Positions 1-19,491 of a DNA stretch of 24,895 nucleotides are shown here, piece by piece (within the stretch, counting starts at the first letter, position 1; every line of letters begins with the position of its first letter). A model generated the notes under the pieces. The model was not told the DNA's origin, did no database searches, and was given only the letters and a program-made list of their open reading frames with translations. Both the position numbers and the translations under genes were made by a program. The stretch spans positions 1-24,895 of IMG/VR virus record IMGVR_UViG_3300024231_001040. One strand, written 5' to 3'. The DNA comes from a virus.

Positions 1-78
1 ATCACACATAGGACATGCCGCCTGACAGCGTTGTGTAACTTCCAGATGTACTTGTTTTATACCATGATAGTTATACAT
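1..78 (-). CDS. Radical SAM enzyme, N-terminal fragment (cut by window edge)
   Basis: Only the first 26 codons lie in the window. The reading frame from ATG at 78 contains C12, C16 and C19 in the order CQAACPMC, which is the CxxxCxxC motif that binds the [4Fe-4S] cluster of radical SAM enzymes. The preceding segment (IKQVHLEVTQR) is the first beta strand and matches the starts of the enzymes at 6465 (RTLEIELSSNCQASCPLC) and 16346 (RQMHIELTSKCNASCPGC). This predicts the same subfamily, with the core at the extreme N terminus and an auxiliary-cluster domain at the C terminus; that part is outside the window. The start overlaps the stop of the 71-301 gene by 8 nt, as elsewhere in this genome. 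No strong ribosome site is seen. The family call is firm; the subfamily is inferred. Confidence 0.85.
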   Translation of the reverse strand, partial: MYNYHGIKQVHLEVTQRCQAACPMCD

Positions 79-301
79 TGTCAATAATTAACTTTACGTT
101 CTGTCCTGGACCAGTTTTACTGGGCAATTCGCCATATTTTTGTACGTACCATTCAATAACAGCACGATACCAGTTCTGGCTATCGTGATGTGCTTTTTTA
201 TTAAACTGATAGATATTATTGTTGGTAGCACTCATTGTACTTAATGCTCTAGCACTTTCAGTTTGCAATTGTCGTAACGATAACTTATTTAAATCTGTCA
301 T
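71..301 (-). CDS. Small hypothetical protein (76 aa)
   Basis: The function is not recognised. ATG at 301 lies 7 nt after the stop of the upstream gene; a TTG eight codons earlier would overlap that gene and is less likely. The protein is polar, with a Gln/Ser/Ala-rich, probably helical N-terminal half (LSLRQLQTESARALSTM), an aromatic segment (NWYRAVIEWYVQKYGELP) and a Lys-rich tail. It has no cysteine, signal peptide or membrane segment. It lies directly upstream of, and overlaps by 8 nt, the radical SAM gene that leaves the window. It could be a small partner or a substrate of that enzyme, or simply a small phage protein; nothing in the sequence decides between these. Confidence 0.6.
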   Translation of the reverse strand: MTDLNKLSLRQLQTESARALSTMSATNNNIYQFNKKAHHDSQNWYRAVIEWYVQKYGELPSKTGPGQNVKLIIDNV

Positions 302-308
302 ATGACAG

Positions 309-929: not shown

Positions 930-937
930 TATTTATT
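930..937 (-). promoter_or_regulatory. T4-type late promoter (AATAAATA)
   Basis: A one-base variant of the T4 late promoter octamer TATAAATA on the minus strand. It overlaps the stop codon of the methyltransferase gene and would start RNA near 924, giving a leader of about 19 nt with the AAGGAG site of the 905 gene. The octamer fits the consensus and is correctly placed. Confidence 0.6.
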
Positions 938-1850
938 TAATACCTAATAGCATGTAACGTTCGTATTCTGGGGTATCTAAACTGCCACTGTAAATAAGTT
1001 GGCTAAACTGATACTTTTCCTCAGCTTCTGCTGTATTATTAACACAATTGATATGTTGTGTATTTTCAAAATAATTATTGGTTTGTAAACACACTAGTTT
1101 TCCACTGGGTATCTGATCAAACCAAGTATCGTCCATGTGTTCACAACTTGTATTAATTATTAAATCTGGACGAATGTCACACACAACATCATTTTCTGCC
1201 ACCAGCTGTTCAATATACCAAGTATTATTGCCACGATTCTTCCACTGTAAATTACATACATCAGTTTCAAATGCTTTAAATCTCCAGGATTGATCGTAAC
1301 ACTGTGGATAGTTAAACTTGTCACTGATCCATCTTGCGTCTGGATCTATATCTAAACTGTATAATTTTTTAATATCAGTAAATCTTTCAAACAAGAAGTA
1401 TGCAATTGTAGCATACCATCCCCCATATAATACAACATTTTGTATACTATCTGCTTCAACATATTCGTCAATTATGTTCATTAACCATAATTTACTCATT
1501 ACTTGACCACGACTAAAGTGATCATTTAGATTAGCAGCTTTGGCTGAACTGATTGACCATGCACTTACTTGTCTTAAAAATTGGTCATCTATACAATGAC
1601 TTATATATCTCAACACTTTGCGATGTGTTGAGTGATCATATTCAATATGCTTACTAAAAATTAGTTGTAAAAATTCATCAGTAAGCTCACTATATCCACG
1701 ATGTATTTCTCTTTTGACTAGATCACGTATTTTGTAAATGTTCCCATGCACAATAGCTTTTTTGATATCTTGGAAGGAATCTAATTGTGGATGCTGAATG
1801 TAAGTAAAATATTCCTCAAACCCATTGACCCAGTGAATATTATCATTCAT
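933..1850 (-). CDS. Class I SAM-dependent methyltransferase, GGWY type (305 aa)
   Basis: A methyltransferase with an N-terminal helical domain (about residues 1-130) and a Rossmann-like SAM-binding domain. The glycine loop is VVLYGGWYATIAYFLF (139-154), followed by the acidic end of strand 2 in LYSLDIDPDA (163-172), which would hold the SAM ribose. The motif-IV region is PDLIINTSCEHMDDTWF (228-244). The C-terminal part has the pattern LQTNNY...HINCV and ends near YERYMLLGIK. I know this layout from marine phage methyltransferases, but its substrate is unknown to me. ATG 1850 is preferred over ATG 1892 because GAGGAAG lies 6 nt before it and the overlap with the upstream glycosyltransferase is then only 8 nt. 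Translational coupling with that gene suggests a joint pathway, perhaps methylation of a sugar or small molecule. Confidence 0.8.
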   Translation of the reverse strand: MNDNIHWVNGFEEYFTYIQHPQLDSFQDIKKAIVHGNIYKIRDLVKREIHRGYSELTDEFLQLIFSKHIEYDHSTHRKVLRYISHCIDDQFLRQVSAWSISSAKAANLNDHFSRGQVMSKLWLMNIIDEYVEADSIQNVVLYGGWYATIAYFLFERFTDIKKLYSLDIDPDARWISDKFNYPQCYDQSWRFKAFETDVCNLQWKNRGNNTWYIEQLVAENDVVCDIRPDLIINTSCEHMDDTWFDQIPSGKLVCLQTNNYFENTQHINCVNNTAEAEEKYQFSQLIYSGSLDTPEYERYMLLGIK

Positions 1851-2553
1851 TAGTGGCTTCCTCAAATTGTTCACGCAACCAAGCATAGTCATTAATCAAA
1901 TGCAATGCTTTTTTATTGTTCTTATAATGATTACCAAAATCTCTGCCTTGTTTAGCACCCATTATACTGTATTCTCCATATGGAGATTTTGCACCACGTG
2001 AGCACCATACTTCCAGCCGATATTTGTTATCAATATTATCACCATTGGGAATAATACTGGAAGCCAGTTTAGTTGCTTCTCTAAACGCACCTTTCCAGGT
2101 ATCAAATGGGGTTGTGTTAAATGCTGTGATGTTGCTGATCTGAAATTTAGGAACAAACGGACATCCAATAGTAGTAGTCATGTCTACTTTAAATTCTCTA
2201 GCGTTTAGTAATTCACGTTTGGGGAATAACTTTACAGCGCCGTAGCCGTATATCAACTTATTTACTGGATTTAAACTACGCCAAGTGTATACACACTTGT
2301 TTTCTGGAATGCCTGGGTATGCCATAATGCTAGGACTAGGAGTAAACTTAAAACTAAATTGCTCATCAATGATAGCATCTGCATCAACCACATAGAAATA
2401 ACCAGTTGAACTCTGTTTTGCACATTCCTTGTGTGCATTAAGTATACCATCTATACCATGCACACGCTTGGCATGTGGTGCAAACAGTTGTAGAAGCTGA
2501 AAGTTTTCGTCAGCAGAAATTTCGTCGTAACTTAGAAAGAATACATCTAACAT
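1843..2553 (-). CDS. GT-A-like glycosyltransferase (236 aa)
   Basis: A putative glycosyltransferase of GT-A fold. The N terminus LDVFFLSYDE forms the first strand of the nucleotide-binding half. The sequence YFYVVDADAII (52-62) places D57 and D59 as the DxD pair that binds metal and the sugar nucleotide. NPVNKLIYGYGAVKLFP and FREATKLASS fit the acceptor half. It is a clear paralogue of the protein at 20478: both share FxSYDE, the DADxI motif, the N-x-VNxLxYGxGxxK(L/C)(F/W)P block and a FREGxK/FREATK helix. It is shorter by about 90 residues at the C terminus. A late promoter on the minus strand lies at 2630-2637, and AAAGGT precedes the ATG. The donor sugar and acceptor are unknown. Confidence 0.72.
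   Translation of the reverse strand: MLDVFFLSYDEISADENFQLLQLFAPHAKRVHGIDGILNAHKECAKQSSTGYFYVVDADAIIDEQFSFKFTPSPSIMAYPGIPENKCVYTWRSLNPVNKLIYGYGAVKLFPKRELLNAREFKVDMTTTIGCPFVPKFQISNITAFNTTPFDTWKGAFREATKLASSIIPNGDNIDNKYRLEVWCSRGAKSPYGEYSIMGAKQGRDFGNHYKNNKKALHLINDYAWLREQFEEATNE
1857..1863 (-). promoter_or_regulatory. Ribosome binding site deciding the methyltransferase start
   Basis: GAGGAAG on the minus strand, 6 nt before ATG 1850 and inside the end of the upstream gene. It favours this start over the in-frame ATG at 1892. Confidence 0.6.
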
Positions 2554-2629: not shown

Positions 2630-2637
2630 TATTTATA
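2630..2637 (-). promoter_or_regulatory. T4-type late promoter (TATAAATA), minus strand
   Basis: A perfect late octamer read on the minus strand. Expected transcription start is near 2624, giving a leader of about 71 nt for the glycosyltransferase gene at 2553. It overlaps the plus-strand octamer at 2634-2641 by four bases. Confidence 0.6.
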
Positions 2638-2641
2638 AATA
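2634..2641 (+). promoter_or_regulatory. T4-type late promoter (TATAAATA), plus strand
   Basis: A perfect late octamer 5 bp before the ATG at 2647. In T4 the octamer spans about -13 to -6, so RNA would start on the A of the ATG. No ribosome site is present. Confidence 0.72.
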
Positions 2642-2646: not shown

Positions 2647-3963
2647 ATGAGTAAAATATTTGCAAGTTTTCCCGACTCCAGTAGCTACAATAAAGAATAC
2701 CCTGATCCAACTGTATCCAATATGTGGATTAGTAAAGTTATAGACTATACTGAAAGTTTTTTTCATGATCAGTTCAATGACATGGCACAATTTACAGTAA
2801 CACCGTACCATAAAATTCCTGAAAAAACACCATACAACATCTATATCAAATGCCATACATCATATCCTGCATATTTAGAAATTATTGATGGGGTACTTAG
2901 TAAGAATAACTACTATAATATGGTACTACAAGATAGTAAACAGGGACTAGTAACATGGTGGTTTGATCATGGATGGGAAAAATTTTTAGTAACACATCAT
3001 GAACAATATGATATTCTAGATTGGTATGGCAGATTAGTACACACTCTTAATTGTGATACCCATCCACACAAAGTAAATTTACTAACTGGGGCAGAATTTA
3101 ATAAAGATCTTTTTGAAAACATAAACCAAACATTTGGTATTAAGATACACTCAATTCAACCGATGGAACATTTCCTACACAAATTAATACTGTATGATAA
3201 CAACTTTAAAAATTTTACATCATTGCGTATTAAAACAATTGAAAGTCGTACAGTAACGCATTCGCCTGGGTTAACATATAATCGAATGCCACGGCCGTTA
3301 CGTGCATTATTATTGGCATACCTAGATGAAAAAAACCTAATAAACAGCACCAATTACAGTTGGGGCGGTAGTAAACTAATATCTAATCTGGCGCCATCAG
3401 CTCACAGTGATTGGTCTACAGAGCAAATAATTGACAATCAGCTAAACACACTAGTACAACAATATGGTGCAGTGGGAGAACAATACAAAGACCAAGTTAA
3501 ACACTGGTATAACAAGCCTGTGGTAAACTTACCTGCTGAAGATGAAAACTTTGATTATACACAAAATCCAGCAGGAAATATAAATTATATACACGCTCAG
3601 TGGAGCAATTTTCAAATAGTAACCGAAACATGCTACAACCATTTAGCATTTTTAAGTGAAAAATCATTTAAACCTTTAGTGATGTTGATGCCGTTTATTA
3701 TATTAGGACCAGCTGGATGTATACAAGCACTACGCAATCGCGGGTATCGTACATATGATAGGTGGATAGATCATAGCTATGACCAAGAATTACAATTTGA
3801 TAGAAGATGGCAATTATTTACGAAAGAAGTCGATCGATTGTATAATTTAACTCCTGATCAGTGGGCTGATATTAAACTACAAATGTTGCCAGATATGATG
3901 TATAATTTATATCATTTCCGTAGTAGATCATTTAACAACCATTCAGATGTATTTTTCAGCTAG
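2647..3963 (+). CDS. Putative glycosyltransferase with SEK motif (438 aa)
   Basis: The N-terminal half is not recognised. The C-terminal segment contains FLSEKSFKPLVMLMPFIILG (336-354 region) and then ALRNRGYRTYDRWIDHSYDQ. The S/T-E-K motif followed by a helix, a PF(I/V) strand and a small-residue turn resembles the donor-nucleotide region of GT10 fucosyltransferase-like and related GT-B enzymes. The paralogue at 9710 shares the same block (ITEKAFKNLV...PFVML...YVDHSYD), so the motif is conserved within this genome. The length is usual for a two-domain transferase. The ATG follows TATAAATA by exactly 5 bp and has no ribosome site, so the message may be leaderless; the next in-frame Met is residue 26. 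Glycosyltransferase is the best guess, but not proven. Confidence 0.5.
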   Translation: MSKIFASFPDSSSYNKEYPDPTVSNMWISKVIDYTESFFHDQFNDMAQFTVTPYHKIPEKTPYNIYIKCHTSYPAYLEIIDGVLSKNNYYNMVLQDSKQGLVTWWFDHGWEKFLVTHHEQYDILDWYGRLVHTLNCDTHPHKVNLLTGAEFNKDLFENINQTFGIKIHSIQPMEHFLHKLILYDNNFKNFTSLRIKTIESRTVTHSPGLTYNRMPRPLRALLLAYLDEKNLINSTNYSWGGSKLISNLAPSAHSDWSTEQIIDNQLNTLVQQYGAVGEQYKDQVKHWYNKPVVNLPAEDENFDYTQNPAGNINYIHAQWSNFQIVTETCYNHLAFLSEKSFKPLVMLMPFIILGPAGCIQALRNRGYRTYDRWIDHSYDQELQFDRRWQLFTKEVDRLYNLTPDQWADIKLQMLPDMMYNLYHFRSRSFNNHSDVFFS

Positions 3964-3998: not shown

Positions 3999-5873
3999 AT
4001 GAAAAACGTTTACCTTAGCCAAATGAGTCTAGAATTACCTGGATCAAAGTACTACTATTTTCCATACAGTGTAGGAGTAGTGTGGTGCTATGCCAATGCT
4101 GACCCAGTAATCCATAACAACTATCAGCTTAAAGGATTATATTTTGTCAAAGAAAATATTGATACTATAGTTGACAGTATGGAAGATCCAGCAGTGTTAG
4201 GTCTGAGCAGTTACATATGGAATACCAACTACAACGAGGAATTTGCACGTAAGGTCAAAACACGTTGGCCCGACTGTAAAATTATCGTGGGCGGTGCTAA
4301 TGCACCTGACAGTAATATTATGTATTTTGAAGACAAGCCGTACATTGATTATTTAATTCATCAAGAAGGAGAAATTAGCTTCCTTGGGCTACTTAAAAGT
4401 TTTATAGGCGAACAAGATGAAGAGAAAGTGCCTGGTATTAGCATAAACCAAAATGGTAAGCGTATTAGTACTGGACCTAGTGTTAGAGTTAGTGACTTAA
4501 CAAATGTGCCCAGTCCATACCTAACTGGATTATTTGATGACATTGTTGAAAAATATAACGGACGTAGTGATATGACTCTTAATGGCATTATTGAAACTAA
4601 TCGCGGGTGTCCATTTATGTGTACGTTCTGTGATTGGGGAGGTACTACATTTAGTAAAGTTAAGAAATTCGATATAACAAGAATTGAAGCAGAAGTCAAG
4701 TGGTTTGCTGAAAATAAGATTGAATACATCAACAATACTGATGCTAACTTTGGTATATTTAAAGAACGTGACATGGCTATTACTGATATGCTTATTGCTA
4801 CAAAACAAAAGTATGGCTTCCCAGAAATATTTGATACAAACTGGAATAAAAATAACAATCAAGTAACAGTAGAGATGGCAAGTAAACTTCTTAATGCAGG
4901 CATGATGCGTAGATTTACTGCTAGTTTACAAAGTATGAACCCTGATGTGCTTAAAGCTATTAAACGCACAAATCTAAATGGAGATCAACTGGACAATATT
5001 GTAGATGATGCACGTAAAATTGGCATTAGTGTTAGTACTGAGATGATTGTTGGATTGCCAGAAGAAACCTACGAAAGTTGGAAGTCCGGGATATGTCAAT
5101 TACTTAAAGACGGGTTTATTGTTGAAAGTTTTCCACTAGCACTATTACAAAATAGTGAAATGAATGTCCCTGCTTACAAAAAACAATATGGACTTATAAC
5201 TAAATCAGTAAAGAGTTATTTTAGTAACTATGTAGACGAATGGCAGGATATGGTAGTAGGCACACGTACAATGTCAGAAGAGATGATGAGTAGAGTTTGG
5301 CTGTGGACCTGGCTTACAAATAAACTTGAAGCAAATGGATTCACACATATTGTAAGTAGGTATTTAGAAAAACATCATAATATTCCACAACAGGATTTTT
5401 ATGAAGAGATGTTAGAATCATTTTTAACTGATAAGAATAGTGTATACTACCCACACTTACAAAAGTGGAGTAAGTATGCACATGATTTAGAATTTCAATA
5501 TTTTATAGCTGGGTATGTATATGGTGAAGTATTGGTTGATATTGGACAACATCGACGAGCTAAGTTTTTTAAAGAAGTATATGAAGTAGCTAATAGGTTA
5601 ATTGGCACATTCGATCCACAATTGAGTCAAGTACTTGACTTACAAGAAAAAATACAGCGTCAACCGCATCAAGATAAACATACTATAACATGTAATAGTA
5701 ATTTATATGAATACATTGTTAACAATGACCAATTGCTAGTTAACAATACTACACAATATACCATAACTAATAATGCAATTGAAGACAGATTTAATAATGA
5801 TTGGTTTGCATTTATGAACTTTGCTAGAAAAAATCGTAGTTGGTTGAATAATATAGAAGCATCTACAATATGA
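3999..5873 (+). CDS. B12-binding-domain radical SAM enzyme (624 aa)
   Basis: A class B-like radical SAM protein. Residues 1 to about 140 form a cobalamin-binding-type Rossmann domain (AVLGLSSYIWN, then CKIIVGGANAP, then YLIHQEGE). They lack the DxHxxG motif that supplies the lower cobalt ligand, which is common in this branch. The core starts at IIETNRGCPFMCTFCDWGG (198-215) with C204, C208 and C211 for the [4Fe-4S] cluster. MIVGLPEET is a later core strand. About 230 further residues at the C terminus are mostly helical and unassigned. Such enzymes methylate or rearrange unactivated carbons, but the substrate here is unknown. A late promoter (3964-3971) starts directly after the upstream stop. 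The stop overlaps the next gene, a methyltransferase, by 4 nt (ATGA), so the two are likely translated together. Confidence 0.88.
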   Translation: MKNVYLSQMSLELPGSKYYYFPYSVGVVWCYANADPVIHNNYQLKGLYFVKENIDTIVDSMEDPAVLGLSSYIWNTNYNEEFARKVKTRWPDCKIIVGGANAPDSNIMYFEDKPYIDYLIHQEGEISFLGLLKSFIGEQDEEKVPGISINQNGKRISTGPSVRVSDLTNVPSPYLTGLFDDIVEKYNGRSDMTLNGIIETNRGCPFMCTFCDWGGTTFSKVKKFDITRIEAEVKWFAENKIEYINNTDANFGIFKERDMAITDMLIATKQKYGFPEIFDTNWNKNNNQVTVEMASKLLNAGMMRRFTASLQSMNPDVLKAIKRTNLNGDQLDNIVDDARKIGISVSTEMIVGLPEETYESWKSGICQLLKDGFIVESFPLALLQNSEMNVPAYKKQYGLITKSVKSYFSNYVDEWQDMVVGTRTMSEEMMSRVWLWTWLTNKLEANGFTHIVSRYLEKHHNIPQQDFYEEMLESFLTDKNSVYYPHLQKWSKYAHDLEFQYFIAGYVYGEVLVDIGQHRRAKFFKEVYEVANRLIGTFDPQLSQVLDLQEKIQRQPHQDKHTITCNSNLYEYIVNNDQLLVNNTTQYTITNNAIEDRFNNDWFAFMNFARKNRSWLNNIEASTI

Positions 5874-6463
5874 ATGAGAGAATAAATTTTTTAAACAAAA
5901 CTATTAAACCATTGTGTAAGGGCGCAAGGGTATGGGATTTTTGCTGTGGTACCGGAATGAATGGACTGTATGCATTAGAACACGGTGCTGAGTTTGTGTA
6001 CTTTTCAGACGTAAGACCACAATCGTTTCAAACATATACTAAAAACTTAAACTTAAATGACAAACATTTTAATTGGCAGTTTCTGGATAGTGATGACATT
6101 GAAACAAAAAACTTAAACCACCTCAGTATAGACATTATAATATATCATGGCCATTTATATCATGCTAGAAATCATTATCAAATTCTAAAGTCACTTAGTG
6201 AATCTACTGCAAAGTATATTTGCTTTGAAAGCAAGGGAAAAGATAGCGATTGCGCAGATATTACCTGGGCCGTTGAACCACAAGATATTGATACCAATGC
6301 ACTGGAACACGGGCAACAAAATTTAAATTCAATGGTAGGCGCACCAACATCAACTTGGTGCTATAAAATGTTTGAACACTTTGGATGGGAAATTGCCGAT
6401 AGTACTATGGAACATCCGCAAGACAAAGATTACGCTAAATGGCGTTATTGGCTTAAACGATAA
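5870..6463 (+). CDS. Class I SAM-dependent methyltransferase (197 aa)
   Basis: A compact Rossmann methyltransferase. Motif I is RVWDFCCGTGMNGLYALEHG (20-39), with strand 2 ending in VYFSDVRP (43-50), where D47 would bind the ribose. The motif-IV strand is IDIIIYHGHLYHARNHYQIL, an arrangement seen in small-molecule methyltransferases rather than DNA methylases, since no NPPY or DPPY is present. Late residues ADITWAVEP and SMVGAPTSTWCYKMFEHFGW may shape the acceptor site. The gene starts inside the stop codon of the B12-type radical SAM gene and ends 1 nt before the next radical SAM gene, so the three form one unit. The substrate is unknown; the product of one of the flanking radical SAM enzymes is a reasonable guess. 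Confidence 0.82.
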   Translation: MNERINFLNKTIKPLCKGARVWDFCCGTGMNGLYALEHGAEFVYFSDVRPQSFQTYTKNLNLNDKHFNWQFLDSDDIETKNLNHLSIDIIIYHGHLYHARNHYQILKSLSESTAKYICFESKGKDSDCADITWAVEPQDIDTNALEHGQQNLNSMVGAPTSTWCYKMFEHFGWEIADSTMEHPQDKDYAKWRYWLKR

Positions 6464-6464
6464 T

Positions 6465-7496
6465 ATGTATACTGCACAACAAATACGCACATTAGAAATA
6501 GAACTAAGCAGTAATTGCCAAGCTAGTTGTCCACTATGCTTGCGCAACTTTCACGGCGCAACATACAACAAAGGATACACTGTAAAAAGTTTAACAACAT
6601 CTGAAATAAAGCAAATACTACCTGCTGACTTTGTTACACAATTAGATACTATAATATTTGAAGGTAACTTGGGAGATGCGATTGTGGTTAGTGACTTAGC
6701 TGATACTGTTAAATATTTACGTAGTTGTAATCCGCATTGTGATATAGAATTACACACCAATGCTAGTGCTGGAAGTAAACAAACATGGATAACACTTGCT
6801 GAACAGCGTGTGCGTGTGTTCTTTGCTCTTGACGGGCTAGAAGATACACATCACTTGTATCGCCGCGGTACTAATTGGCAAAAAATTATAGACAACGCTG
6901 GCATTTTTATGAGTGCAGGTGGAGATGCAATATGGAAATTCATTCCATTAACAACTAACCAACACCAACAAGAAGATTGTAGAAGGCTTAGTATGGAATT
7001 TGGTTTTTCTTCTTTTGCAGTTATGAGCGACCAGCGACAGAACTGTCATGTGTTTGATGCTCAGGGAGAATATCAATATAGTATTGGTAATCCAAAAGGT
7101 CCTAAAGACTTTAAACAGGCAGTGCGTGATTATCAAATAAGTGGAGAGCAACAGGACCTTAGGCCTGTGCCCAAGCGTATTGAATGTTATGCAGACAAAC
7201 GAAAATATCTATACCTTGATGCATTGGGCGATGTATACCCTTGTTGCTACTTGGGTAGTCAGCCACGCACTTTTGATAGAAAGGGTGGGGTACAAAAATA
7301 TGTACATAAACGTGTTGATGATATAATGTACAATAATAATCTATTTGAAAATTCTATTAATGATGCAATCGATTGGTTTAACAAAATACCTCCCAAATGG
7401 AGTGCGCCAATGTCGGATAGGCTTGCTGCATGTGATAATGTGTGTGGGAAAAATACCAATTCTATAGAGATTAGTACAAATAATTATGACGAGTAA
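6465..7496 (+). CDS. Radical SAM enzyme with C-terminal SPASM/twitch domain (343 aa)
   Basis: The core begins almost at residue 1: RTLEIELSSNCQASCPLC holds C18, C22 and C25 in the CxxxCxxC motif for the SAM-binding cluster. ALDGLEDTHHLYRR (121-134) is a core block shared with the enzyme at 16346 (VDGLEDTNHMYRR). The C-terminal domain has the auxiliary-cluster signature C241-x13-G255-x4-C260, followed by C261 and a CDNVC pair (C323, C327), as in SPASM/twitch proteins. Those proteins commonly modify peptides, and some modify sugars or other small molecules. ATG 6465 is chosen because it follows the methyltransferase stop by 1 nt and puts the core at the N terminus, as in its paralogues. The 3' end overlaps the convergent gene at 7484 by 13 bp. 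Confidence 0.87.
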   Translation: MYTAQQIRTLEIELSSNCQASCPLCLRNFHGATYNKGYTVKSLTTSEIKQILPADFVTQLDTIIFEGNLGDAIVVSDLADTVKYLRSCNPHCDIELHTNASAGSKQTWITLAEQRVRVFFALDGLEDTHHLYRRGTNWQKIIDNAGIFMSAGGDAIWKFIPLTTNQHQQEDCRRLSMEFGFSSFAVMSDQRQNCHVFDAQGEYQYSIGNPKGPKDFKQAVRDYQISGEQQDLRPVPKRIECYADKRKYLYLDALGDVYPCCYLGSQPRTFDRKGGVQKYVHKRVDDIMYNNNLFENSINDAIDWFNKIPPKWSAPMSDRLAACDNVCGKNTNSIEISTNNYDE

Positions 7497-8425
7497 AGTC
7501 TATAGCCATCATCTTGTAGTTTAACAACACCAAACTCAAACCTTATACTGTGCATACTAATACCGGACTGTTGCATAATCCATTCATAAACATTATCTTC
7601 ACTATAACCGATTATCATTCTACCAGTAAAATTTTTAAAATCGTTTGGATCAATATCATAATCATGTGAGTTATTGTCTACGGCCCAGTTAGTAACATGT
7701 TGTTGGATACTTTGTCTGTATTGATTTAATTCTGATTCTGGCATAGTAGTGCCCGGCACAATAATACTAAATTGACTTTTGATGTCTGTTTTGGGAACAT
7801 AACGAAGTGGATTTTTCATACTGTTAACGTCATCATCAAATGCAAGTGCTTGTAAATCTTTGCCTAGTGTGTTGTATCCGATTATCATACAGTTCTGATA
7901 CTTAAATCCTGCATCATAACATTGTGCATCGGATTCAGTTAATGGTGTACTATAATTAGCTTCTACTTTATATGCACTACAACTACTAATATAAGGAGGA
8001 CTTTCAAAATTTTCAGCTTGATTCATAATTTTTGCTTCTAATTCATGTATAGCAAAGTTTAAATCACAAAGCATACTGGCTACATTTTCATTAGGCTGAA
8101 GCTGTGTACTTTCGGCAAATTTATCATGCAGTATGTTTAATTCAGACTGATTGTATGGAACATTCTGCCAACAGTCTGGAATATCAATATCAGGGCAATC
8201 AGTAACAATTTGTCGACATATATTAAATATATTATTCTGTAATGTTTGTTCACTAGCCATAGGAGTAGGACACTCAAAGTCAAACTCCAATATTTGCCTA
8301 TCATAGTCTTGAAAAATACGTTGCCACACATTTAAAAATTTATTACTTGCGCTGTTATTGCTTAGTTCATAATTTAAAATACGATAGTCCGTATCTCCAG
8401 TAAGTGTTATTGTTATAATTGCCAT
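7484..8425 (-). CDS. Hypothetical protein (313 aa)
   Basis: The function is not recognised. The protein is acidic and soluble, with no signal peptide or membrane helix. The N terminus MAIITITLTGDTDYRI is a likely beta hairpin. A helical stretch follows (about residues 105-140, NENVASMLCDLNFAIHELEA). The C-terminal half has GRMIIGYSEDNVYEWI. Cysteines are scattered (residues 52, 69, 77, 84 and others) with no metal-site spacing I can name. It is the only minus-strand gene between two plus-strand blocks, with its own late promoter (AATAAATA, 8431-8438) placed 5 bp from the ATG and no ribosome site. Its 3' end overlaps the convergent radical SAM gene by 13 bp. An upstream ATG at 8430 runs into a stop after five codons and is not used. 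Confidence 0.65.
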   Translation of the reverse strand: MAIITITLTGDTDYRILNYELSNNSASNKFLNVWQRIFQDYDRQILEFDFECPTPMASEQTLQNNIFNICRQIVTDCPDIDIPDCWQNVPYNQSELNILHDKFAESTQLQPNENVASMLCDLNFAIHELEAKIMNQAENFESPPYISSCSAYKVEANYSTPLTESDAQCYDAGFKYQNCMIIGYNTLGKDLQALAFDDDVNSMKNPLRYVPKTDIKSQFSIIVPGTTMPESELNQYRQSIQQHVTNWAVDNNSHDYDIDPNDFKNFTGRMIIGYSEDNVYEWIMQQSGISMHSIRFEFGVVKLQDDGYRLYSS

Positions 8426-12083: not shown

Positions 12084-13257
12084 GCCAATAGTCCTCAAGT
12101 TCTGGTATTACATCTAGTATACTTATATTTCGCATTTTGTCACGCATTTTTGTTATTCTTTTAAATTCCTGCCAGTGTGCATCTACCCTGGGTCTCTTTA
12201 GTTGTTCAACCAATGGAGCGAGATTATTGCTACCGGTATACACATACCCATGGTTATATGTTTGTTCAAACTCAGTAATTAAATGTTGTTTAATAGGATC
12301 TGGCAACATTTCAATTGAATAAAAACTTTGATTGACTGGATTTAACCAAATTGGAAATTTAAAATCCAACTGCTCTTTGTAGTATTTACTAGTACGTATT
12401 ATATCAAATATACTGTATGCACTATACGTATATGCATTAGCAATAAAATCTGTTGGCAAGAGTCTACTTTTTATCAAATGTAAGTTTTTAATAAACTGAT
12501 CCCAATTGGCTGGGTATCTGGTATATTCAAATGTTTTATCACTGCCATCACCACTAAGTAATATGTTCCTACGTTTGAATGTGCTTAACATATCAAACAT
12601 TTCCTCTTCGTATATGCTACCATTGGTAGCAAAATTTATCTCAATATTCTTACTAATACCTGAATCTACCAACTTACGCATAAACGGAGTCATTTCCTTA
12701 ACCAATAATGGTTCACCACCGTATACATTAAGTAGTTTAGCATGATGACATTTTTCAATTATACTATCCCAAATTTCTGGGGTTCGCCACCATTTGGTTT
12801 TAAATGTAACACCTCTGCCTGGCCATAATATTTCATCTTCATTGAATAACATACTACTACTAGCACTATCACATACCACACACATTTGGTTGCACACATT
12901 TCCTAACTTCATATCAATATCCAGGATACTATGTGTGGATGCATCGTTTTTCGTAATGTACTGTACCGCATAATCATGGAATCGGTTATTACTATTTTGT
13001 CGCTGACTAGTAATACCAACTTCTTCGTTACGATAACATGTAGAACAGTTAACACTTGGTTTGTTGTCCAGCATATTTTGTCTTAAAGTTTGCCAGTGTT
13101 CGGCATGTGTGATTTCATCCAAAGTATAATTTGACAAAGTATGAGTAACTTCAGTAATATTACTGTTAAAATCACAACATGGCACAACATGCCCATTTGC
13201 TCTAATTTCAACACCAGTAAATGCCTTGATACAAAAATGCTTGTTTATTTCAGTCAT
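12073..13257 (-). CDS. Radical SAM enzyme with N-terminal twitch domain (394 aa)
   Basis: The N-terminal domain shows the auxiliary-cluster signature C9-x12-G22-x4-C27 (FCIKAF, then ANGHVVPCC), completed by the pair CSTC (C71, C74) with the following YRNEE. The radical SAM core begins DIDMKLGNVCNQMCVVC with C122, C126 and C129, followed by SASSS. VYGGEP (178-183) is the SAM-binding GGEP block. The C-terminal part ends in helices (FKRITKMRDKMRNI). ATG 13257 with GGAG (13265-13268) at 7 nt is preferred to an upstream TTG. It overlaps the stop of the isochorismatase-like gene by 4 nt (ATGA). It is second in a three-gene unit started by the late promoter at 13769-13776. Confidence 0.88.
   Translation of the reverse strand: MTEINKHFCIKAFTGVEIRANGHVVPCCDFNSNITEVTHTLSNYTLDEITHAEHWQTLRQNMLDNKPSVNCSTCYRNEEVGITSQRQNSNNRFHDYAVQYITKNDASTHSILDIDMKLGNVCNQMCVVCDSASSSMLFNEDEILWPGRGVTFKTKWWRTPEIWDSIIEKCHHAKLLNVYGGEPLLVKEMTPFMRKLVDSGISKNIEINFATNGSIYEEEMFDMLSTFKRRNILLSGDGSDKTFEYTRYPANWDQFIKNLHLIKSRLLPTDFIANAYTYSAYSIFDIIRTSKYYKEQLDFKFPIWLNPVNQSFYSIEMLPDPIKQHLITEFEQTYNHGYVYTGSNNLAPLVEQLKRPRVDAHWQEFKRITKMRDKMRNISILDVIPELEDYWHED
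12092..12096 (-). promoter_or_regulatory. Ribosome binding site deciding the radical SAM start at 12083
   Basis: GAGGA on the minus strand, 8 nt before ATG 12083. The in-frame TTG at 12098 overlaps this site and is therefore unlikely to be the start. Confidence 0.6.
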
Positions 13258-13763
13258 ATATAATCTCCAAAGCAAATTTTATATCCGCTAGTAATACTAT
13301 ACTTATATGTCTCATGTATAATATCAGCTTCATCCATATTATGACTCATTAAATTTAAACAACAATCGACCACAACTTCACATTTATAGCCAGCAGCTGT
13401 CATATTATGTATACCAAGTTCTCGATGCTCAATACAGCCAGGGATACTAAAGCCAGTATAGTATAGATGATTTACATTATTATTTTTTAAGTATACATTG
13501 ACTTCATCAGTATTCCAGCTTGTGATAATATTATCACGCCTACTAACGGCTGATTCAATTAGATGATGTGGGTGTTTCCATGGAAAATTTATTGCTTGGT
13601 CCGGAGGTAACTCAGTTTGATATGCAGCTAAAACAATTGGACCCTGCCAACGCTGAAGAACTTTGGATATACGTAATACAGTACGTTCCATTGGTGTTTG
13701 TAGAAAGCTAAGACCAGGATAATATTTGTCCCATGTGTCGATAATCATTATTGCTGATGTCAT
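13254..13763 (-). CDS. Isochorismatase-like cysteine hydrolase family protein (169 aa)
   Basis: The N terminus AIMIIDTWDKYYP carries D9, the Asp of the family's catalytic triad. TGFSIPGCIEHRELGIHNMT (103-122) has C110 in the position of the nucleophile, and AAGYKCEVVVDCC (123-135) matches the closing strand of the fold. The length is near the family minimum. The triad Lys, normally about 30-40 residues before the Cys, is not obvious: the region reads SRRDNIITSWNTDE with Arg instead, so activity may be altered or lost. Family members hydrolyse isochorismate, nicotinamide, N-carbamoyl compounds and similar amides; the substrate here is unknown. The gene opens a three-gene unit with two radical SAM genes. 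TATAAATA lies exactly 5 bp before the ATG, with no ribosome site. Confidence 0.75.
   Translation of the reverse strand: MTSAIMIIDTWDKYYPGLSFLQTPMERTVLRISKVLQRWQGPIVLAAYQTELPPDQAINFPWKHPHHLIESAVSRRDNIITSWNTDEVNVYLKNNNVNHLYYTGFSIPGCIEHRELGIHNMTAAGYKCEVVVDCCLNLMSHNMDEADIIHETYKYSITSGYKICFGDYI
13265..13268 (-). promoter_or_regulatory. Ribosome binding site deciding the radical SAM start at 13257
   Basis: GGAG on the minus strand, 7 nt before ATG 13257, inside the end of the isochorismatase-like gene. It rules against the in-frame TTG at 13275. Confidence 0.6.
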
Positions 13764-13768: not shown

Positions 13769-13776
13769 TATTTATA
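13769..13776 (-). promoter_or_regulatory. T4-type late promoter (TATAAATA)
   Basis: A perfect late octamer on the minus strand, 5 bp before the ATG at 13763 of the isochorismatase-like gene. RNA would start on the ATG. It lies in the 30-bp gap behind the radical SAM gene that ends at 13794. Confidence 0.72.
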
Positions 13777-13793: not shown

Positions 13794-15101
13794 TTAATTA
13801 TCCGGCCAAGTTTTCCATCCTTTGCGTTCTTTGTATTCAGTAAAGAAATTGTATAGATAATTTAAACTTCGACTCCAATTTAAGTCAGCACTCTTATCAA
13901 ATACCCATAATCTCTTCCACATTTCACTTATTAAGTGATCCTTTTCTTCTTGACTAAACGTATCTTCTTGTATATAACTAATAATACTTTTCATACCTTG
14001 TACTTGGTTGCCGCCCAGCGGATGATGATTTTCCAGCCAATCAATGTGTGTTTCGTATTTTTTTATAACACGTTCTTTATACCAGTCTGGAAAGATTGCT
14101 GGATGCTGCCACTGTGGCCAACTTACAAAGTTGGGTGTGAACAGTGCCCATTGACTCCATTTATTTTCCACACAATATTTGTTAAACTCAGGAAAGTGTT
14201 CTAGATTTAATGCACCAATAGTGGGTGCTGGAAACAAATGTACTTTTGGTGCTTCAGTTTTTACACGATTAAAATTAGATTCAAACTGTGACCATTTTAA
14301 TCCAGTGCGTATATACTCAATAGGTTCACCATAACCATCAATACTTGCACCAACACTAACTCTATCAAACTTTTTCCAAATTTCTACTATATCTCTGCCT
14401 TTGTATTTTAGACTAGTTAGATTGGTGTTATATTTAATTTTTACGTCAGTCCGTCCCATGGCAATCAACTTGTCTAGCATTTGTAAATGTTCTGGATATA
14501 AAAATGGTTCCCCACCTGCGAAATAAATTTCTTCAACTGTTTCCAAAAATGGCTCTACTTTTTCATAACAATCAACATGTATAAATTTTGGTTTGTTTTG
14601 TTGGCTACGTGGGTTGTCGGCAGTAATTCCGTTGTCTACTTCCAGTTTAATTAATTCGTCATGCCATGTACTGCTGAGTTCATAACCACACATACGGCAT
14701 TTTAGATTACAAATATTACCAAACCGTATATCCAAATATAGCATATTAATATCGCTAGTACCGTCTTCTTTGGTATCTGCTACTACCTGTCTTGTCTTTT
14801 CATTATCAAATTCTGTATTAAACCACGAACGCATACTGTTATGTTTGCGTCCAGCATCATCATGTTGGTAGCAACGATTGCATCCTGGATGTTTTTCACC
14901 AGCTAAGAATTGTTTACGTAATTTTTTAAAACTATCATGATTCATTAAATCTGGTACGCTATCATAGTTTTGCATTTCACCATAATTATCACGTTTGTGT
15001 TGTTGGTCCCAGAAACAACAGGGCATTACTTTACCTGTGGGTAACACGTGTAAATGCACCCAGGGTGCTAGACAAAAACTTTTGTTGTCGGGTAAATCCA
15101 T
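13794..15101 (-). CDS. Radical SAM enzyme with N-terminal twitch domain (435 aa)
   Basis: Domain order is auxiliary-cluster domain then radical SAM core. The N terminus has C10-x12-G23-x4-C28 (SFCLAPW, then TGKVMPCCF), and the pair CNRC (C74, C77) with YQHDDAG. The core motif RFGNICNLKCRMCGYELSST gives C131, C135 and C138. FAGGEP (194-199) and KYNTNLTSL are further core blocks. The segment after the cluster (SSTWHDEL) is shared with its paralogues. It is last in the long minus-strand unit that begins at 23495, with 15 nt separating it from the upstream radical SAM gene and TGGAA before the ATG as a weak ribosome site. Only 30 bp separate its stop from the next gene, and they hold a late promoter rather than a visible terminator. 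Confidence 0.89.
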   Translation of the reverse strand: MDLPDNKSFCLAPWVHLHVLPTGKVMPCCFWDQQHKRDNYGEMQNYDSVPDLMNHDSFKKLRKQFLAGEKHPGCNRCYQHDDAGRKHNSMRSWFNTEFDNEKTRQVVADTKEDGTSDINMLYLDIRFGNICNLKCRMCGYELSSTWHDELIKLEVDNGITADNPRSQQNKPKFIHVDCYEKVEPFLETVEEIYFAGGEPFLYPEHLQMLDKLIAMGRTDVKIKYNTNLTSLKYKGRDIVEIWKKFDRVSVGASIDGYGEPIEYIRTGLKWSQFESNFNRVKTEAPKVHLFPAPTIGALNLEHFPEFNKYCVENKWSQWALFTPNFVSWPQWQHPAIFPDWYKERVIKKYETHIDWLENHHPLGGNQVQGMKSIISYIQEDTFSQEEKDHLISEMWKRLWVFDKSADLNWSRSLNYLYNFFTEYKERKGWKTWPDN

Positions 15102-15116: not shown

Positions 15117-16346
15117 TTAACTTTTTTGTTCGTCAATTTGCGTTTTACGCAAATCTTCCTGAATGCGCACACTTTCATATAGACTGTCAATAGGATTATT
15201 ATGCACTTGACAGTGTTTAGTACATTGTGCAATTCTACCATCACTGTGTTTTTTAATATCCCAAGTGTCTTTAATTTTACTAAAGTAGTCAGTTTCATCT
15301 AATACATATTGCAATCCGTGCTTAATAATATTGATGTTGTCAAATCCAATATTTTTATCAACCCATTCATAATATTGCATATTAATAATACCGTCGGCAT
15401 CTTGACTTACATGTCCTAGGAAACAGCATGGGTGAACCCCACCTTGAGCATCTACATAAATTTCTTGATTACGGATACTCATACAATCGATTTGCTGACT
15501 ACTATCTAACCAACTTAAATGACCTTTTTGTATTCTTTCGTCTAGTGAATCTTTTTCATTCTTGAATGAGCGTTTGAACACTTCAGGTACCAGTGGATCC
15601 ATACGAGTATTACTTTTTCCTTGATTTTTACCAGCTTCTAAGTGCCAGCTATTAGTCCATTCATCGTCTGGTGGATATAATGCACCTTCCACTAATCCAT
15701 TATCGTCCAACAACAGCATACTATCTAGTCCTCTGCCTTGTTTTTCTTCAGTGAATCCAAATGCTTTTTTATAGAAGAAATCTTTAAATCCTAATTCTTC
15801 ACTTAGTGCTTTTGCATCATTTAGCTGATGCTGATTGTGACCAAATATTAAAAATTCCCATGTGGCTGCACCACCAGCATCTATAAAGGCCTTCATATTA
15901 GCGTATAACTTACTCCACTGTACTTTGCGTCTATACATATGATTGGTATCTTCCAGACCATCCACACTAAAAATAACACGGTCATGATGTGGATTCATTT
16001 TGTCAGCCAATTTACGCCAAAATGTTGGATTGCGCATTCCTCCATTTGTATGCACACGCACACAACCTTCCCAATGGCACTGTTTAATATAGTCTACAAT
16101 TTCAACTAAATCACGGCACGTTCCCGGATCACCATAGTTTCCGCAAAATAATATTGTCCTACATCCTTTAAGTAGTTCAGGCGTAAACACTTGCTTAAAT
16201 TGGGAGAGTGACCATTCACGTTTATCTATCCATGGTAACGGATATCCTCCGCTTACGTTGCGTGGACAACCCGGACATGATGCATTACACTTACTTGTAA
16301 GTTCAATATGCATCTGTCTAATGTTTTTGTATTTAATCATACTCAT
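15117..16346 (-). CDS. Radical SAM enzyme with C-terminal SPASM/twitch domain (409 aa)
   Basis: The core starts at the N terminus: RQMHIELTSKCNASCPGC with C20, C24 and C27 for the SAM cluster. LFCGNYGDPG (66-75) stands in the position of the GGEP block. VDGLEDTNHMYRR (128-140) and TWEFLIFGHNQHQ (162-174) are shared with the 6465 enzyme. The C-terminal auxiliary domain has C288-x13-G302-x4-C307, C308 and CTKHC (C375, C379), a SPASM/twitch pattern. It is about 65 residues longer than the 6465 paralogue, mostly in an insert before the auxiliary domain. The start overlaps the previous stop by 4 nt (ATGA), with AAGGA 9 nt before. It is embedded between three N-twitch enzymes, so both architectures are probably made together. 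Confidence 0.89.
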   Translation of the reverse strand: MSMIKYKNIRQMHIELTSKCNASCPGCPRNVSGGYPLPWIDKREWSLSQFKQVFTPELLKGCRTILFCGNYGDPGTCRDLVEIVDYIKQCHWEGCVRVHTNGGMRNPTFWRKLADKMNPHHDRVIFSVDGLEDTNHMYRRKVQWSKLYANMKAFIDAGGAATWEFLIFGHNQHQLNDAKALSEELGFKDFFYKKAFGFTEEKQGRGLDSMLLLDDNGLVEGALYPPDDEWTNSWHLEAGKNQGKSNTRMDPLVPEVFKRSFKNEKDSLDERIQKGHLSWLDSSQQIDCMSIRNQEIYVDAQGGVHPCCFLGHVSQDADGIINMQYYEWVDKNIGFDNINIIKHGLQYVLDETDYFSKIKDTWDIKKHSDGRIAQCTKHCQVHNNPIDSLYESVRIQEDLRKTQIDEQKS

Positions 16347-17881
16347 GTGTTAGTATCCTTGTTGTCAGGTATCAACAGTTGATCTTCCACTGCTTGTGCC
16401 AATGTGTCTAAATATATTGGGCGACCCCACGTAGTAGCATCGCCATCTTTAACTGGTTCCTTGACTGGATGTATATTATGACTAACATCATATCCCTCGT
16501 ACCAGTTTACTAAATCTGGTAAGTTTGAAAATGCTGTCATAAAATTTTTGTTCCTACGTACATCATACTGCTTGTAAAAACTAACAAAGTCACGCTGGCG
16601 AGTTTCAATATCGCTGTAATCTCTAACACTGTGTCCTTCGTCAACTACTTCCAGGTATGCTAATGTTCTTTCAAATCCATCTTGTTCGTGTTTGTGGAAA
16701 CGCTCTTTTTGCTCACTGTACCAATCACTTAAATATTTATGGCGTTCTTTTCTTACTTCTTCCGGTAATGTAGTAATACTCTGAAAACTAGGAAAACGTA
16801 AAATATTATAACTCATATCAACAAATGTTTCATCTTCTGCAAATTTACCACCATTATATTCTTCACGCATATCAAAAATCTGTTCATGCATCTTATCAAT
16901 ACTACCCAAACATAATGCATTGATAGTTAACATACAGTGTACCATGCCAAAATTTCCTTCATTTAACATGTATTTGTAGTTGTCAATCCATTCGTCATAC
17001 ACAAGACCGTCACGTATGTATTCTGCTTGTTCGCCAAATGCTTCATTACTGGTGTAAATATCAAAAGCATCAATTTTATGACTAAGTTTAACTAACCTGT
17101 GTAAATGACTACGCTTACACCCCAAGTTAGTGTTAACTGCTAATCGTACTTTGCACCCTGGATTTTTATCGTACCAGTTGATTAATTTCCAAAAGTCATG
17201 ACTCACAGTAGCTTCGCCACCAGTAACTCTTAACTGTTGTAAATTATGTTGTAAATCAGTTTCCCACCATTTCCAAAATGCCTGAGTGTATGGATTTCCT
17301 TCGTTCTTAACGCCATATGGCTGAGCCCATTCTCCAGTATGTGCAAATGCTCCCCAGCCATCACTGGTCATATTATCATACGGCCCATTCTTTTTAATAT
17401 CATGGCCCCACGTTGTACTAAATCCAGCATTACAATAACTACATGCAAAATTACAATTACTATCAAATGCAATCTCTAATGTCTTGGGCGTAAAGCTATC
17501 TCTCCAGTCACTAGTAAAGGCAGTTTCTAGTTCTTCTTCACTATAGGGTGTACTTTTATAATAACGATCACTTACATAATCATTGCCCATATCTTCAATT
17601 TTCCAGCAATATTCACATTCTTTGGGACGTACACCTTCTTGCATTTGTTTACGTACTAGTTTTTTATATACTGTATTGTGTAATGCACTGGGATCTTTTT
17701 TAACATCGTTTTCATTAATTTTATGTGGTGGTGGATGATGACAACTGGTTGTTGCACCGTTTCCGAGCCATACAGTAGCATTATACCATTTTGCCCCACA
17801 AAAGCTAGTACTTTTTTTATCAAGTACACGTGTGCGCCATTCTACTGGTGTTTCTTTAATATTTTTCTTTTTATTAGCCAT
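16343..17881 (-). CDS. Radical SAM enzyme with N-terminal twitch domain, CHHP type (512 aa)
   Basis: The N-terminal cluster region reads C28-x13-G42-x4-C47 and continues as SCHHPPPHKI, then the pair CEYC (C89, C92) with WKIED and SDRYYKS. The radical SAM core is EIAFDSNCNFACSYCNAGFS with C143, C147 and C150. RVTGGEA (218-224) is the GGEP-equivalent with Ala for Pro. It is closely related to the next upstream gene (19491 start): same CHHPxPHKI block, same spacing, the same tryptophan-rich AFWKWW segment, and a similar large insert before GGE. It is longer than the other N-twitch proteins by about 80-120 residues. Its ATG shares one base with the upstream stop (TAATG). The enzyme's substrate is unknown. 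Confidence 0.89.
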   Translation of the reverse strand: MANKKKNIKETPVEWRTRVLDKKSTSFCGAKWYNATVWLGNGATTSCHHPPPHKINENDVKKDPSALHNTVYKKLVRKQMQEGVRPKECEYCWKIEDMGNDYVSDRYYKSTPYSEEELETAFTSDWRDSFTPKTLEIAFDSNCNFACSYCNAGFSTTWGHDIKKNGPYDNMTSDGWGAFAHTGEWAQPYGVKNEGNPYTQAFWKWWETDLQHNLQQLRVTGGEATVSHDFWKLINWYDKNPGCKVRLAVNTNLGCKRSHLHRLVKLSHKIDAFDIYTSNEAFGEQAEYIRDGLVYDEWIDNYKYMLNEGNFGMVHCMLTINALCLGSIDKMHEQIFDMREEYNGGKFAEDETFVDMSYNILRFPSFQSITTLPEEVRKERHKYLSDWYSEQKERFHKHEQDGFERTLAYLEVVDEGHSVRDYSDIETRQRDFVSFYKQYDVRRNKNFMTAFSNLPDLVNWYEGYDVSHNIHPVKEPVKDGDATTWGRPIYLDTLAQAVEDQLLIPDNKDTNT

Positions 17882-19491
17882 TATGCTTTTTTACCTTCTG
17901 CACGATATTCTGCTTGCATTTCATAATACAGATCATTATAGTATTGGCAATCAAAATAAAATTCTTCCATTTCTGGAAATGTTTGTACAAAGTCAGTACC
18001 ATGCCGTTCATCCATTTTATTTACAAAATCATAAAACATAGCACGTTTTTTAATAAGGTCAAAACCTTCATTACGTTCAGGCTTATTCTTCTGATTAAAA
18101 TATAAACGGTGTACTACAATACGCTTAAACTTGTCAATTTCATATTCTTCAAATCCTTGATGATCACTCCATGCACCATTACTGCTACGATTACTCATAT
18201 AGTCTAGCGTGGGCAAAAGGTAATCTTCCACTAGCTGATGGCTACAAATCTGAACATCCAAATAATCTGGACTTCTTAAATAAGGAACATCAAGTCCAAC
18301 TGTTACACTGTGATCTGGACTAAGGGTTCGTCTATCAGTAAGCGACATGTCGCCAGGCCGAGTAATGCGGAATCCAGTACTAGTTTCCAAATGCTGATTA
18401 CTGTTATTTGGATTGTATTTTTGTTTAAGTTGATATTGCCATTCTAGTAACTTACGGAATCCAGTAATACTGAATATATTAAATGTAGCCATAATAACTG
18501 CACGTACATTACCAAGTTGTAGTAGTTGTTCATATCGTTTACGGAACAATTCAAAATTTAATCCACGTCTAGCATACTCAGCTTGTTTACCCCAACTTTC
18601 AACACTAGTATAGATGGTAATCTTTTTAACATGATTATCTTCTTTAAGAACAACGAGCTTCTCAATAAACTTATCCCAAATTTTATCAGGTATACTTAGG
18701 TTACTGTTAATACTAAACTCTAGTTCTGGGTTTGGATTTTGAATAAAAAAGTCCATTGTTTTGAGTGTTTCTTTACTCATCAATGGTTCGCCACCAGTAA
18801 TACGGAAATGTTTTAAATGCTTATACGCATCAGGAAACCATTTCCAAAATGCATCAATGTAAGGATTAAAGTCTCGATTTTTATAACTTAAATTATCTAG
18901 ATCCTGATACCCTTGTACCCAAGTTTCAGTTTTATCACCTTCGAAAACTTTGATAGGCCCGTTTAGTTTTAGATCTTCTACCCACTTGCTGCTAAATTCT
19001 GGACCGCAATAATGACAAGCAAGGTTACATGCATTACTAAAACTAACTTCCAGATAACTTGGATATATATTTTCATCACCTTTAAGATTAACAACTTCAT
19101 CAAAGTCAGTAAGTGCCCAGGGTTCTAAACTTTTATAGTGTCTATCACTAGTTCCACTATCATCTTCAACTCTCCAACAATAATCACACTCACTGGGCTT
19201 TTCATTATTAAGCATTTCAGTTCGTGCTTTTTTAAGTACACTGGTATTAAACAATGCTGCAGGATTTTCTTGTATTTCTTTTAATGGTATTTTGTGTGGT
19301 GATGGATGATGACATGCATGCGTCATACCAGTACCCAAGTGCATAGTTACTTGCTTAAACTTAGCCATACAAAATCCGCACCCTTTGCTGTCAAGCAAGG
19401 ATTTTATTTTTTCTAGATTATGATGATTATTGCCAATAGTGCCGTCTGGCTCTTTTGCCCAATCTACTTCTTGAAATTTTTTAACTGTCAT
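17881..19491 (-). CDS. Radical SAM enzyme with N-terminal twitch domain, CHHP type (536 aa)
   Basis: The N-terminal auxiliary region has CGFC (C38, C41), the signature C41-x13-G55-x4-C60 continuing as ACHHPSPHKI, and the pair CDYC (C102, C105) with WRVEDD and SDRHYKS. The core motif EVSFSNACNLACHYCGPEFS gives C155, C159 and C162; RITGGEP (230-236) follows a block with the aromatic AFWKWFP segment. It is the longest N-twitch enzyme here and pairs with the 17881-start gene as a tandem duplication. C38 is extra compared with that paralogue. The start lies 3 nt after the glycosyltransferase stop with no clear ribosome site, so it is probably translated by coupling. The C-terminal 130 residues are charged and helical. 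Confidence 0.89.
   Translation of the reverse strand: MTVKKFQEVDWAKEPDGTIGNNHHNLEKIKSLLDSKGCGFCMAKFKQVTMHLGTGMTHACHHPSPHKIPLKEIQENPAALFNTSVLKKARTEMLNNEKPSECDYCWRVEDDSGTSDRHYKSLEPWALTDFDEVVNLKGDENIYPSYLEVSFSNACNLACHYCGPEFSSKWVEDLKLNGPIKVFEGDKTETWVQGYQDLDNLSYKNRDFNPYIDAFWKWFPDAYKHLKHFRITGGEPLMSKETLKTMDFFIQNPNPELEFSINSNLSIPDKIWDKFIEKLVVLKEDNHVKKITIYTSVESWGKQAEYARRGLNFELFRKRYEQLLQLGNVRAVIMATFNIFSITGFRKLLEWQYQLKQKYNPNNSNQHLETSTGFRITRPGDMSLTDRRTLSPDHSVTVGLDVPYLRSPDYLDVQICSHQLVEDYLLPTLDYMSNRSSNGAWSDHQGFEEYEIDKFKRIVVHRLYFNQKNKPERNEGFDLIKKRAMFYDFVNKMDERHGTDFVQTFPEMEEFYFDCQYYNDLYYEMQAEYRAEGKKA

Follow-up and report, generated by a model that had tools for sequence, protein, structure and literature searches.

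The locus analysed here raises the question of why a virus should carry an array of radical S-adenosylmethionine (SAM) enzymes next to sugar enzymes, and on what molecule these enzymes might act. The window, by which we mean the whole stretch of DNA analysed, is the entire IMG/VR record IMGVR_UViG_3300024231_001040, a viral contig of 24,895 bp. Gene order in relatives, where a putative fibre gene heads an operon of glycosyltransferase and radical SAM genes, leads us to suggest that this phage probably coats its own virions with sugars of an unusual, chemically tailored kind. The more specific explanation that the phage glycosylates its own fibre late in infection, and that the radical SAM enzymes tailor the product, is our preferred one, and is put forward tentatively, at close to, if below, an even chance.

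A six-frame scan of the window found 12 matches to the CxxxCxxC motif, three of them in short spurious frames and nine in real genes (Table 1). All nine radical SAM genes of the original prediction, which had been made from the sequence, are in place; however, only eight are complete, and the ninth is a truncated start: read on the minus strand, it begins at position 78 and is cut off by the contig end, which leaves 26 residues in the window (MYNYHGIKQVHLEVTQRCQAACPMCD), 92% identical to radical SAM proteins of the related records G039 and G040. In a profile search PF04055 matched at eight places. Pfam Radical_SAM backs seven of the eight full-length proteins (E 3.5e-17 to 1.4e-5), and for the remaining one (16343–17881) the Pfam match is weak (0.009) whereas that to NCBIfam NF033640 is clear (8e-85), so that the eight complete genes combine CxxxCxxC with the PF04055 fold by one profile or the other. 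It has been claimed that most of them are of the SPASM/twitch kind, and this is borne out: the proteins encoded at 12073, 13794, 16343 and 17881 pass the curated cut-off of the N-twitch family NF033640 (170 bits), a subfamily model that gives no substrate, the protein at 10776 falls slightly short of it (160.8 bits) and two others have weak SPASM matches. The B12-binding radical SAM protein at 3999 has the KedN5 C-methyltransferases (NF033712) as its best family, of which it is a relative and not a member (246 bits against a curated cut-off of 700).

The conservation of gene order was followed using the 115-aa protein encoded near the other end of the window, which has 439 relatives in viral contigs. 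Through its gene 80 loci were fetched, 73 with enough DNA upstream and 55 with at least 6.5 kb downstream; they were picked by similarity to the family in the window, with identity down to about 41% and near-duplicates included, and the counts are therefore not independent trials. The core order is putative fibre, 115-aa protein, GT8, GT8, the conserved protein U327, a GT-A transferase of the YDEP family and then radical SAM genes. The putative fibre gene lies directly upstream of the 115-aa gene in 73/73 loci, and downstream two GT8 genes, the YDEP transferase and radical SAM genes are each found in 55/55 loci and U327 in 54/55. The radical SAM set itself varies among loci; in the records G004, G007 and G011 the order fibre, 115-aa protein, GT8, GT8, U327, glycosyltransferase, 17881, 16343, 13794, 12073, 10776 is preserved (reciprocal best hits, 27–67% identity). 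Relatives therefore keep the set together and in order rather than singly, and radical SAM was found by profile in all eight full genes, both of which speak for the original prediction. A wider set of 87 usable loci was obtained by pooling a fetch with the YDEP transferase with that of the 115-aa gene, identical fibre proteins being counted once. Radical SAM genes lie within five genes of the YDEP gene in 65 of these loci and are absent there in 22, which mostly have an extra YDEP transferase at this place, often followed by a putative methyltransferase of the type encoded at 933. Because these 22 loci hold transferases or putative methyltransferases in place of the radical SAM genes, the arrangement looks like an invariant core for fibre glycosylation, to which the radical SAM genes would add an exchangeable tailoring layer.

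The sugar enzymes of the window are in agreement with such a function to different degrees. Six known or putative glycosyltransferases had been proposed. Two belong to GT8 by profile (A3 against glycogenin, E 5e-8) and have a DxD motif with the consensus LIDxDxI. The predicted model of the protein at 19495 (predicted local distance difference test score, pLDDT, 89) matched RmlT, SunS and TarS in Foldseek (best E 5.5e-4), and D65 and D67 of its DxD motif are invariant in alignment A4; its assignment as a GT-A glycosyltransferase is supported by this predicted fold, and that of the protein at 1843 likewise by homology. The last two, at 2647 and 9710, stay putative, as they have no Pfam match and their family has no PDB match. 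The nucleotide-sugar dehydrogenase was confirmed by three profiles. One of the two proposed methyltransferases (5870) was identified by Pfam, whereas the call for the other (933) is based on motifs, with no Pfam or PDB match, and the isochorismatase-like protein has a PF00857 domain slightly under the cut-off.

The original prediction had also pointed to late promoters. We take the octamer TATAAATA to be the T4 late promoter. Four exact copies of it are present in the window against 5.5 expected; the number is not in excess and we have dropped it as evidence, so that the positions alone are informative. Only 436 bases of the window are non-coding, and all four octamers fall there; they precede operons at three intergenic sites. 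Within the window, no exact octamer accompanies the main fibre operon. The radical SAM and sugar locus is probably transcribed late.

Searches of viral contigs with three window proteins gave 45 related records, each of which was then searched whole. Radical SAM matches were present in 45/45 and N-twitch matches in 44/45, many records having 10–21, and the 198-kb record G039 has 21. The density that had been called exceptional for a virus is so among isolated phages, but within this uncultured lineage, in which single records reach about 21, it is ordinary. Six long relatives, G039 among them, gave scores above the cut-off for the T4-type capsid protein Gp23, which is not encoded in the window. 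In G039 the island lies behind genes which, by inspection, look like those of the baseplate proteins gp25 and gp6 and of a giant tail protein; this position and the variable radical SAM set give the island the features of a host-recognition cluster, that is, a variable island with transferases beside distal tail genes. A whole-window DNA search found no match among 50,697 deposited phage records. At the protein level, the 13794 protein has 14 distant matches among deposited phages, most of them in Vibrio phages (KVP40 and K566/K567 are examples) and one in a single-cell marine virus, which is likewise the one distant match of the 17881 protein, and the 3999 protein has two distant matches, both gut phage records. 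The cultured Vibrio phage K566 (L234) has five CxxxCxxC genes akin to the N-twitch set, four of them annotated as radical SAM, and KVP40 has two annotated radical SAM genes; the head of the conserved operon is absent from the regions of K566, K567 and KVP40 that were inspected. Host prediction through the capsid gene was tried and names no host, the nearest isolates (66–71% identity) being jumbo phages that infect Pseudomonas or other bacteria. Three contigs binned as Neisseriaceae, Rickettsiales and Gammaproteobacteria (L183, L200 and L202) look like misbinned phage DNA of the same kind.

Some relatives also carry genes for the cofactors. G039 encodes a SAM synthetase, an iron–sulphur (Fe-S) assembly protein, a ferredoxin-reductase-like protein, NeuB and heptose-type (ADP-heptose-like) sugar genes. 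Its SAM synthetase gene (G039:C1:171172-172263; L130), a full-length one in a T4-like phage, adjoins that of the Fe-S assembly protein. Among radical-SAM-rich viral records, SAM synthetase was found in 6/19, the Fe-S assembly protein in 3/19 and an A-type carrier in 4/18; Fe-S assembly genes are thus not universal, in part because the records are fragments. SAM synthetase occurs in 135 records of the phage collection, and no recognised T4-like phage is among the 12 of these 135 that were listed. A carbamoyltransferase is present in the islands of G044 (C1:24424-25935) and G039 (C1:128354-129931) and an adenylylsulphate-kinase-like gene in that of G039, which may hint at carbamoyl or sulfate decorations.

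Bacteria have the same enzyme families. When genomes were scanned with one N-twitch subfamily, most matches came from Bdellovibrionota; a scan with the alignment of the B12-binding radical SAM protein turned up no bacterial relative. N-twitch radical SAM genes were present in 42 of 144 sampled Bdellovibrionota genomes, with up to 20 per directly fetched genome; in the genome with 20, a long array lies on a Bdellovibrionia chromosome (G049:C1:745469-774899; L227-L228). Two members of a recurring trio of radical SAM proteins are about 57–65% identical to the phage copies and the third about 43–49%, and the trio often lies beside YDEP-type transferases and 933-type genes. In a tree of 245 N-twitch proteins, built with FastTree and containing some long branches, phage and bacterial rows are intermixed, with at least 19 forced label changes. 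The fibre gene was found in only one of the 144 genomes, on a Bdellovibrionales chromosome contig (L207), where positions 14281-21271 encode, in phage order, the fibre, the 115-aa protein, GT8, GT8, a further gene, a glycosyltransferase and two radical SAM proteins, with PheT- and TrmD-like genes nearby by inspection.

Based on these data we propose the following mechanism. In this model, the window would represent one end of a host-recognition island in an uncultured T4-like phage, where an operon headed by a distal-tail (fibre or adhesin) protein would be transcribed late in infection. The glycosyltransferases would build a glycan on this protein from nucleotide sugars, made in part by the phage, and the variable radical SAM set (N-twitch, SPASM-like and one B12-dependent C-methyltransferase-like enzyme) would then tailor the sugars. 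C-methylation, epimerisation, dehydration and oxidation are examples of what these enzymes might do, and an ordinary methyltransferase would work beside them, with some relatives supplying their own SAM and Fe-S clusters. The outcome would be a chemically unusual and fast-diversifying decoration of the structure with which the virion contacts its host. The original prediction of a multi-step pathway for a virion glycan, virion protein or secreted product had left the target open; its radical SAM set does lie in one locus with sugar enzymes, and synteny favours the fibre and its glycan as the target. We infer that the fibre is the acceptor and that the radical SAM enzymes act on the glycan.

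Several points weigh against this explanation. The fibre identity of the first gene is deduced from its position, which in G039 follows putative baseplate and tail genes named by inspection; its AlphaFold model has a mean pLDDT of 70, and a fold search gave no PDB match and, in BFVD, matches that are all uncharacterised viral proteins. Of the Bdellovibrionota that have these radical SAM families, most are without the fibre gene, so that in them the enzymes must have another target. In the literature on related phages, such transferases are interpreted as enzymes that modify the polysaccharide of the host surface (PMC7029224; PMC7824862). Finally, the putative fibre protein has a loop rich in Gly and Tyr (GGGYGGGGYGGGY), and such repeats had suggested a direct radical SAM target because they are nearly confined to the fibre family (about 3,900 other proteins were checked). 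However, among the 87 loci the loop was rich in 34 and not in 31 of those with radical SAM genes, and rich in nine and not in 13 of those without (Fisher p = 0.46), and the loop was rejected as a specific radical SAM substrate. The putative fibre protein of the window and those of relatives (e.g. L340:4094-5761) have long (GGY)n, (GY)n or (GSY)n repeats, which vary strongly between phages.

The most serious alternative is that the transferases and radical SAM enzymes alter the surface polysaccharide of the host during infection and so exclude competing phages, as in serotype conversion or superinfection exclusion. This has been proposed for the glycosyltransferases of pelagimyophages (PMC7029224) and for cyanophage transferase clusters (PMC7824862), and it would fit the ADP-heptose-like and NeuB sugar genes of G039 and the presence of the same radical SAM families beside glycosyltransferases on Bdellovibrionota chromosomes. 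We nevertheless regard it as unlikely. The promoters are of the late type, the window encodes no clear membrane or export protein, flippase or polymerase, and the linkage to a tail-region gene is strict (73/73 loci); in relatives, the G039 island has only one small hydrophobic open reading frame and the G007 island region one protein with 10 membrane segments. It is because of this linkage, the exchange pattern, the placing of the promoters and the near absence of membrane proteins that we favour glycosylation of the fibre over modification of the host surface.

Two further alternatives share the locus but differ in the product. The direct targets of the radical SAM enzymes could be amino-acid side chains, in the fibre or in some other protein of the virion, which would receive marks such as a cyclophane, a thioether or a C-methyl group, with glycosylation being a separate process. 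Peptides are frequent substrates of SPASM/twitch enzymes and the Gly/Tyr repeats point to the fibre; however, the loop is about equally common with and without radical SAM genes, and we consider direct modification improbable. Doubtful to a greater degree is a secreted or intracellular small molecule, made as by a natural-product cluster: a KedN5-like B12 radical SAM protein, an isochorismatase-like protein and many tailoring enzymes would suit it, but there is no scaffold-building enzyme (polyketide synthase, non-ribosomal peptide synthetase or terpene enzyme) among the annotated genes, and the operon is a fixed one headed by a tail-region gene. A ribosomally made and modified peptide, whose radical SAM maturases belong to the same broad superfamily, can be given hardly any credence and was rejected, since no intergenic gap in the window exceeds 93 bp and could hold a precursor gene (one larger listed gap holds a methyltransferase gene), and the 76-aa protein at 71–301 is conserved over its full length in nine members, without a variable core.

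Apart from these genes, the window encodes a fast-evolving protein at 7484, orthologues of which adjoin the B12-binding radical SAM gene in other contigs (24–87% identity). All features are listed in Table 1.

Table 1. Genes and promoter-type octamers of the window, with the evidence for each call
Feature	Position	Strand	Evidence
Ninth radical SAM gene, start only, CQAACPMC	1..78	-	26 aa, 92% identity to G039/G040 radical SAM
Conserved 76-aa protein beside truncated CQAACPMC radical SAM gene	71..301	-	9 members/records
Putative class I methyltransferase, GGWY and DIDP motifs	933..1892	-	family A5, also present in Bdellovibrionota
YDEP-family glycosyltransferase	1843..2553	-	32% identity to 19495-20478 in alignment A4
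T4-late-type octamers TATAAATA, between two divergent operons	2630..2641	2634 (+), 2630 (-)	
Putative glycosyltransferase, paralogue of 9710-10786	2647..3963	+	alignment A6
B12-binding radical SAM, KedN5-like, CPFMCTFC	3999..5873	+	PF04055 E 3.5e-17, PF02310 E 7e-6, NF033712 E 6.5e-73
Class I methyltransferase	5870..6463	+	PF08242 E 1.8e-6
Radical SAM with weak C-terminal SPASM match, CQASCPLC	6465..7496	+	PF04055 E 1.4e-5, SPASM 0.0045
Protein, function unassigned, fast-evolving	7484..8425	-	same cassette as nucleotide-sugar dehydrogenase
T4-late-type octamer, ahead of nucleotide-sugar dehydrogenase	8438..8445	+	
Nucleotide-sugar dehydrogenase	8472..9710	+	PF00984 E 6e-17, PF03721 E 1e-16, TIGR03026 E 3e-44
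Putative glycosyltransferase, EK..KP and DHSYD motifs conserved	9710..10786	+	alignment A6
N-twitch-like radical SAM, CDLACVYC	10776..12083	-	PF04055 E 3e-9; NF033640 160.8 bits
N-twitch radical SAM, CNQMCVVC	12073..13257	-	NF033640 E 3e-82
Isochorismatase-like hydrolase	13254..13763	-	PF00857 E 6.7e-6, 26.7 against cut-off 27 (slightly below)
T4-late-type octamer, ahead of isochorismatase/radical SAM operon	13769..13776	-	
N-twitch radical SAM, CNLKCRMC	13794..15101	-	NF033640 E 1e-111
Radical SAM with weak C-terminal SPASM match, CNASCPGC	15117..16346	-	PF04055 E 1.2e-8, SPASM 0.009
N-twitch radical SAM, CNFACSYC	16343..17881	-	NF033640 E 8e-85
N-twitch radical SAM, CNLACHYC	17881..19491	-	NF033640 E 3.5e-88
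GT-A fold glycosyltransferase (predicted), YDEP family	19495..20478	-	predicted model, Foldseek, alignment A4
U327, conserved protein, function unassigned	20475..21458	-	in operon at 54/55 loci
GT8-family glycosyltransferase, paralogue of 22260..23147	21415..22263	-	belongs to profile A3
GT8-family glycosyltransferase	22260..23147	-	profile A3 against glycogenin, E 5e-8
Conserved 115-aa protein, function unassigned	23148..23495	-	1 copy in 14/18 viral records tested and one Bdellovibrionales genome
Putative fibre or adhesin protein, 406 aa, first gene of conserved operon	23566..24786	-	position-based

Parts of this arrangement have been seen before. The 183-kb genome of the T4-like marine phage TARA_ERS488813_N000010 holds 12 radical SAM genes together with paaD and a gene for an A-type Fe-S carrier; it resembles the present lineage in its wealth of radical SAM genes and, as in some of the relatives, in the A-type carrier (PMC5332604). 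The available portions of that report treat these genes as Fe-S metabolism and describe no fibre–transferase–radical SAM operon, glycan pathway or SAM synthetase. In pelagimyophages, too, the host-recognition cluster is a hypervariable island, in which radical SAM cassettes and GT8 glycosyltransferases accompany tail fibres; in that system, however, radical SAM makes up a cassette that is variable and of minor extent, and the transferases have been interpreted as modifying the host O-chain, whereas here the operon is invariant and accompanied by 8 to 21 radical SAM genes (PMC7029224). Phage glycosyltransferases are also thought to glycosylate a virion protein in mycobacteriophages, as suggested for Maravista, though the protein is the capsid and not a fibre and, in the available part of the source, radical SAM tailoring is not mentioned (PMC11256854). 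Our literature search found no report of the invariant operon, of the link to Bdellovibrionota or of a phage SAM synthetase together with radical SAM arrays. The invariant fibre–transferase–radical SAM operon appears to be new, whereas the density of radical SAM genes as such was already known.

We know of no description of radical SAM tailoring of a virus particle. It is possible, if clearly short of an even chance, that throughout a large group of uncultured T4-like phages a fibre glycan is tailored by exchangeable radical SAM enzymes, in some members with self-supplied SAM and Fe-S clusters, drawn from a pool of enzymes held in common with Bdellovibrionota. If true, this would explain why some marine phages spend tens of kilobases on radical SAM enzymes, and it would mean that host-contact surfaces can be diversified by chemistry rather than by sequence. 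Such phages would also hold a large and so far untapped supply of radical enzymes that act on carbohydrates or proteins. As Bdellovibrionota are a phylum that includes bacterial predators, the common enzyme pool makes gene flow between two kinds of predator of bacteria testable.

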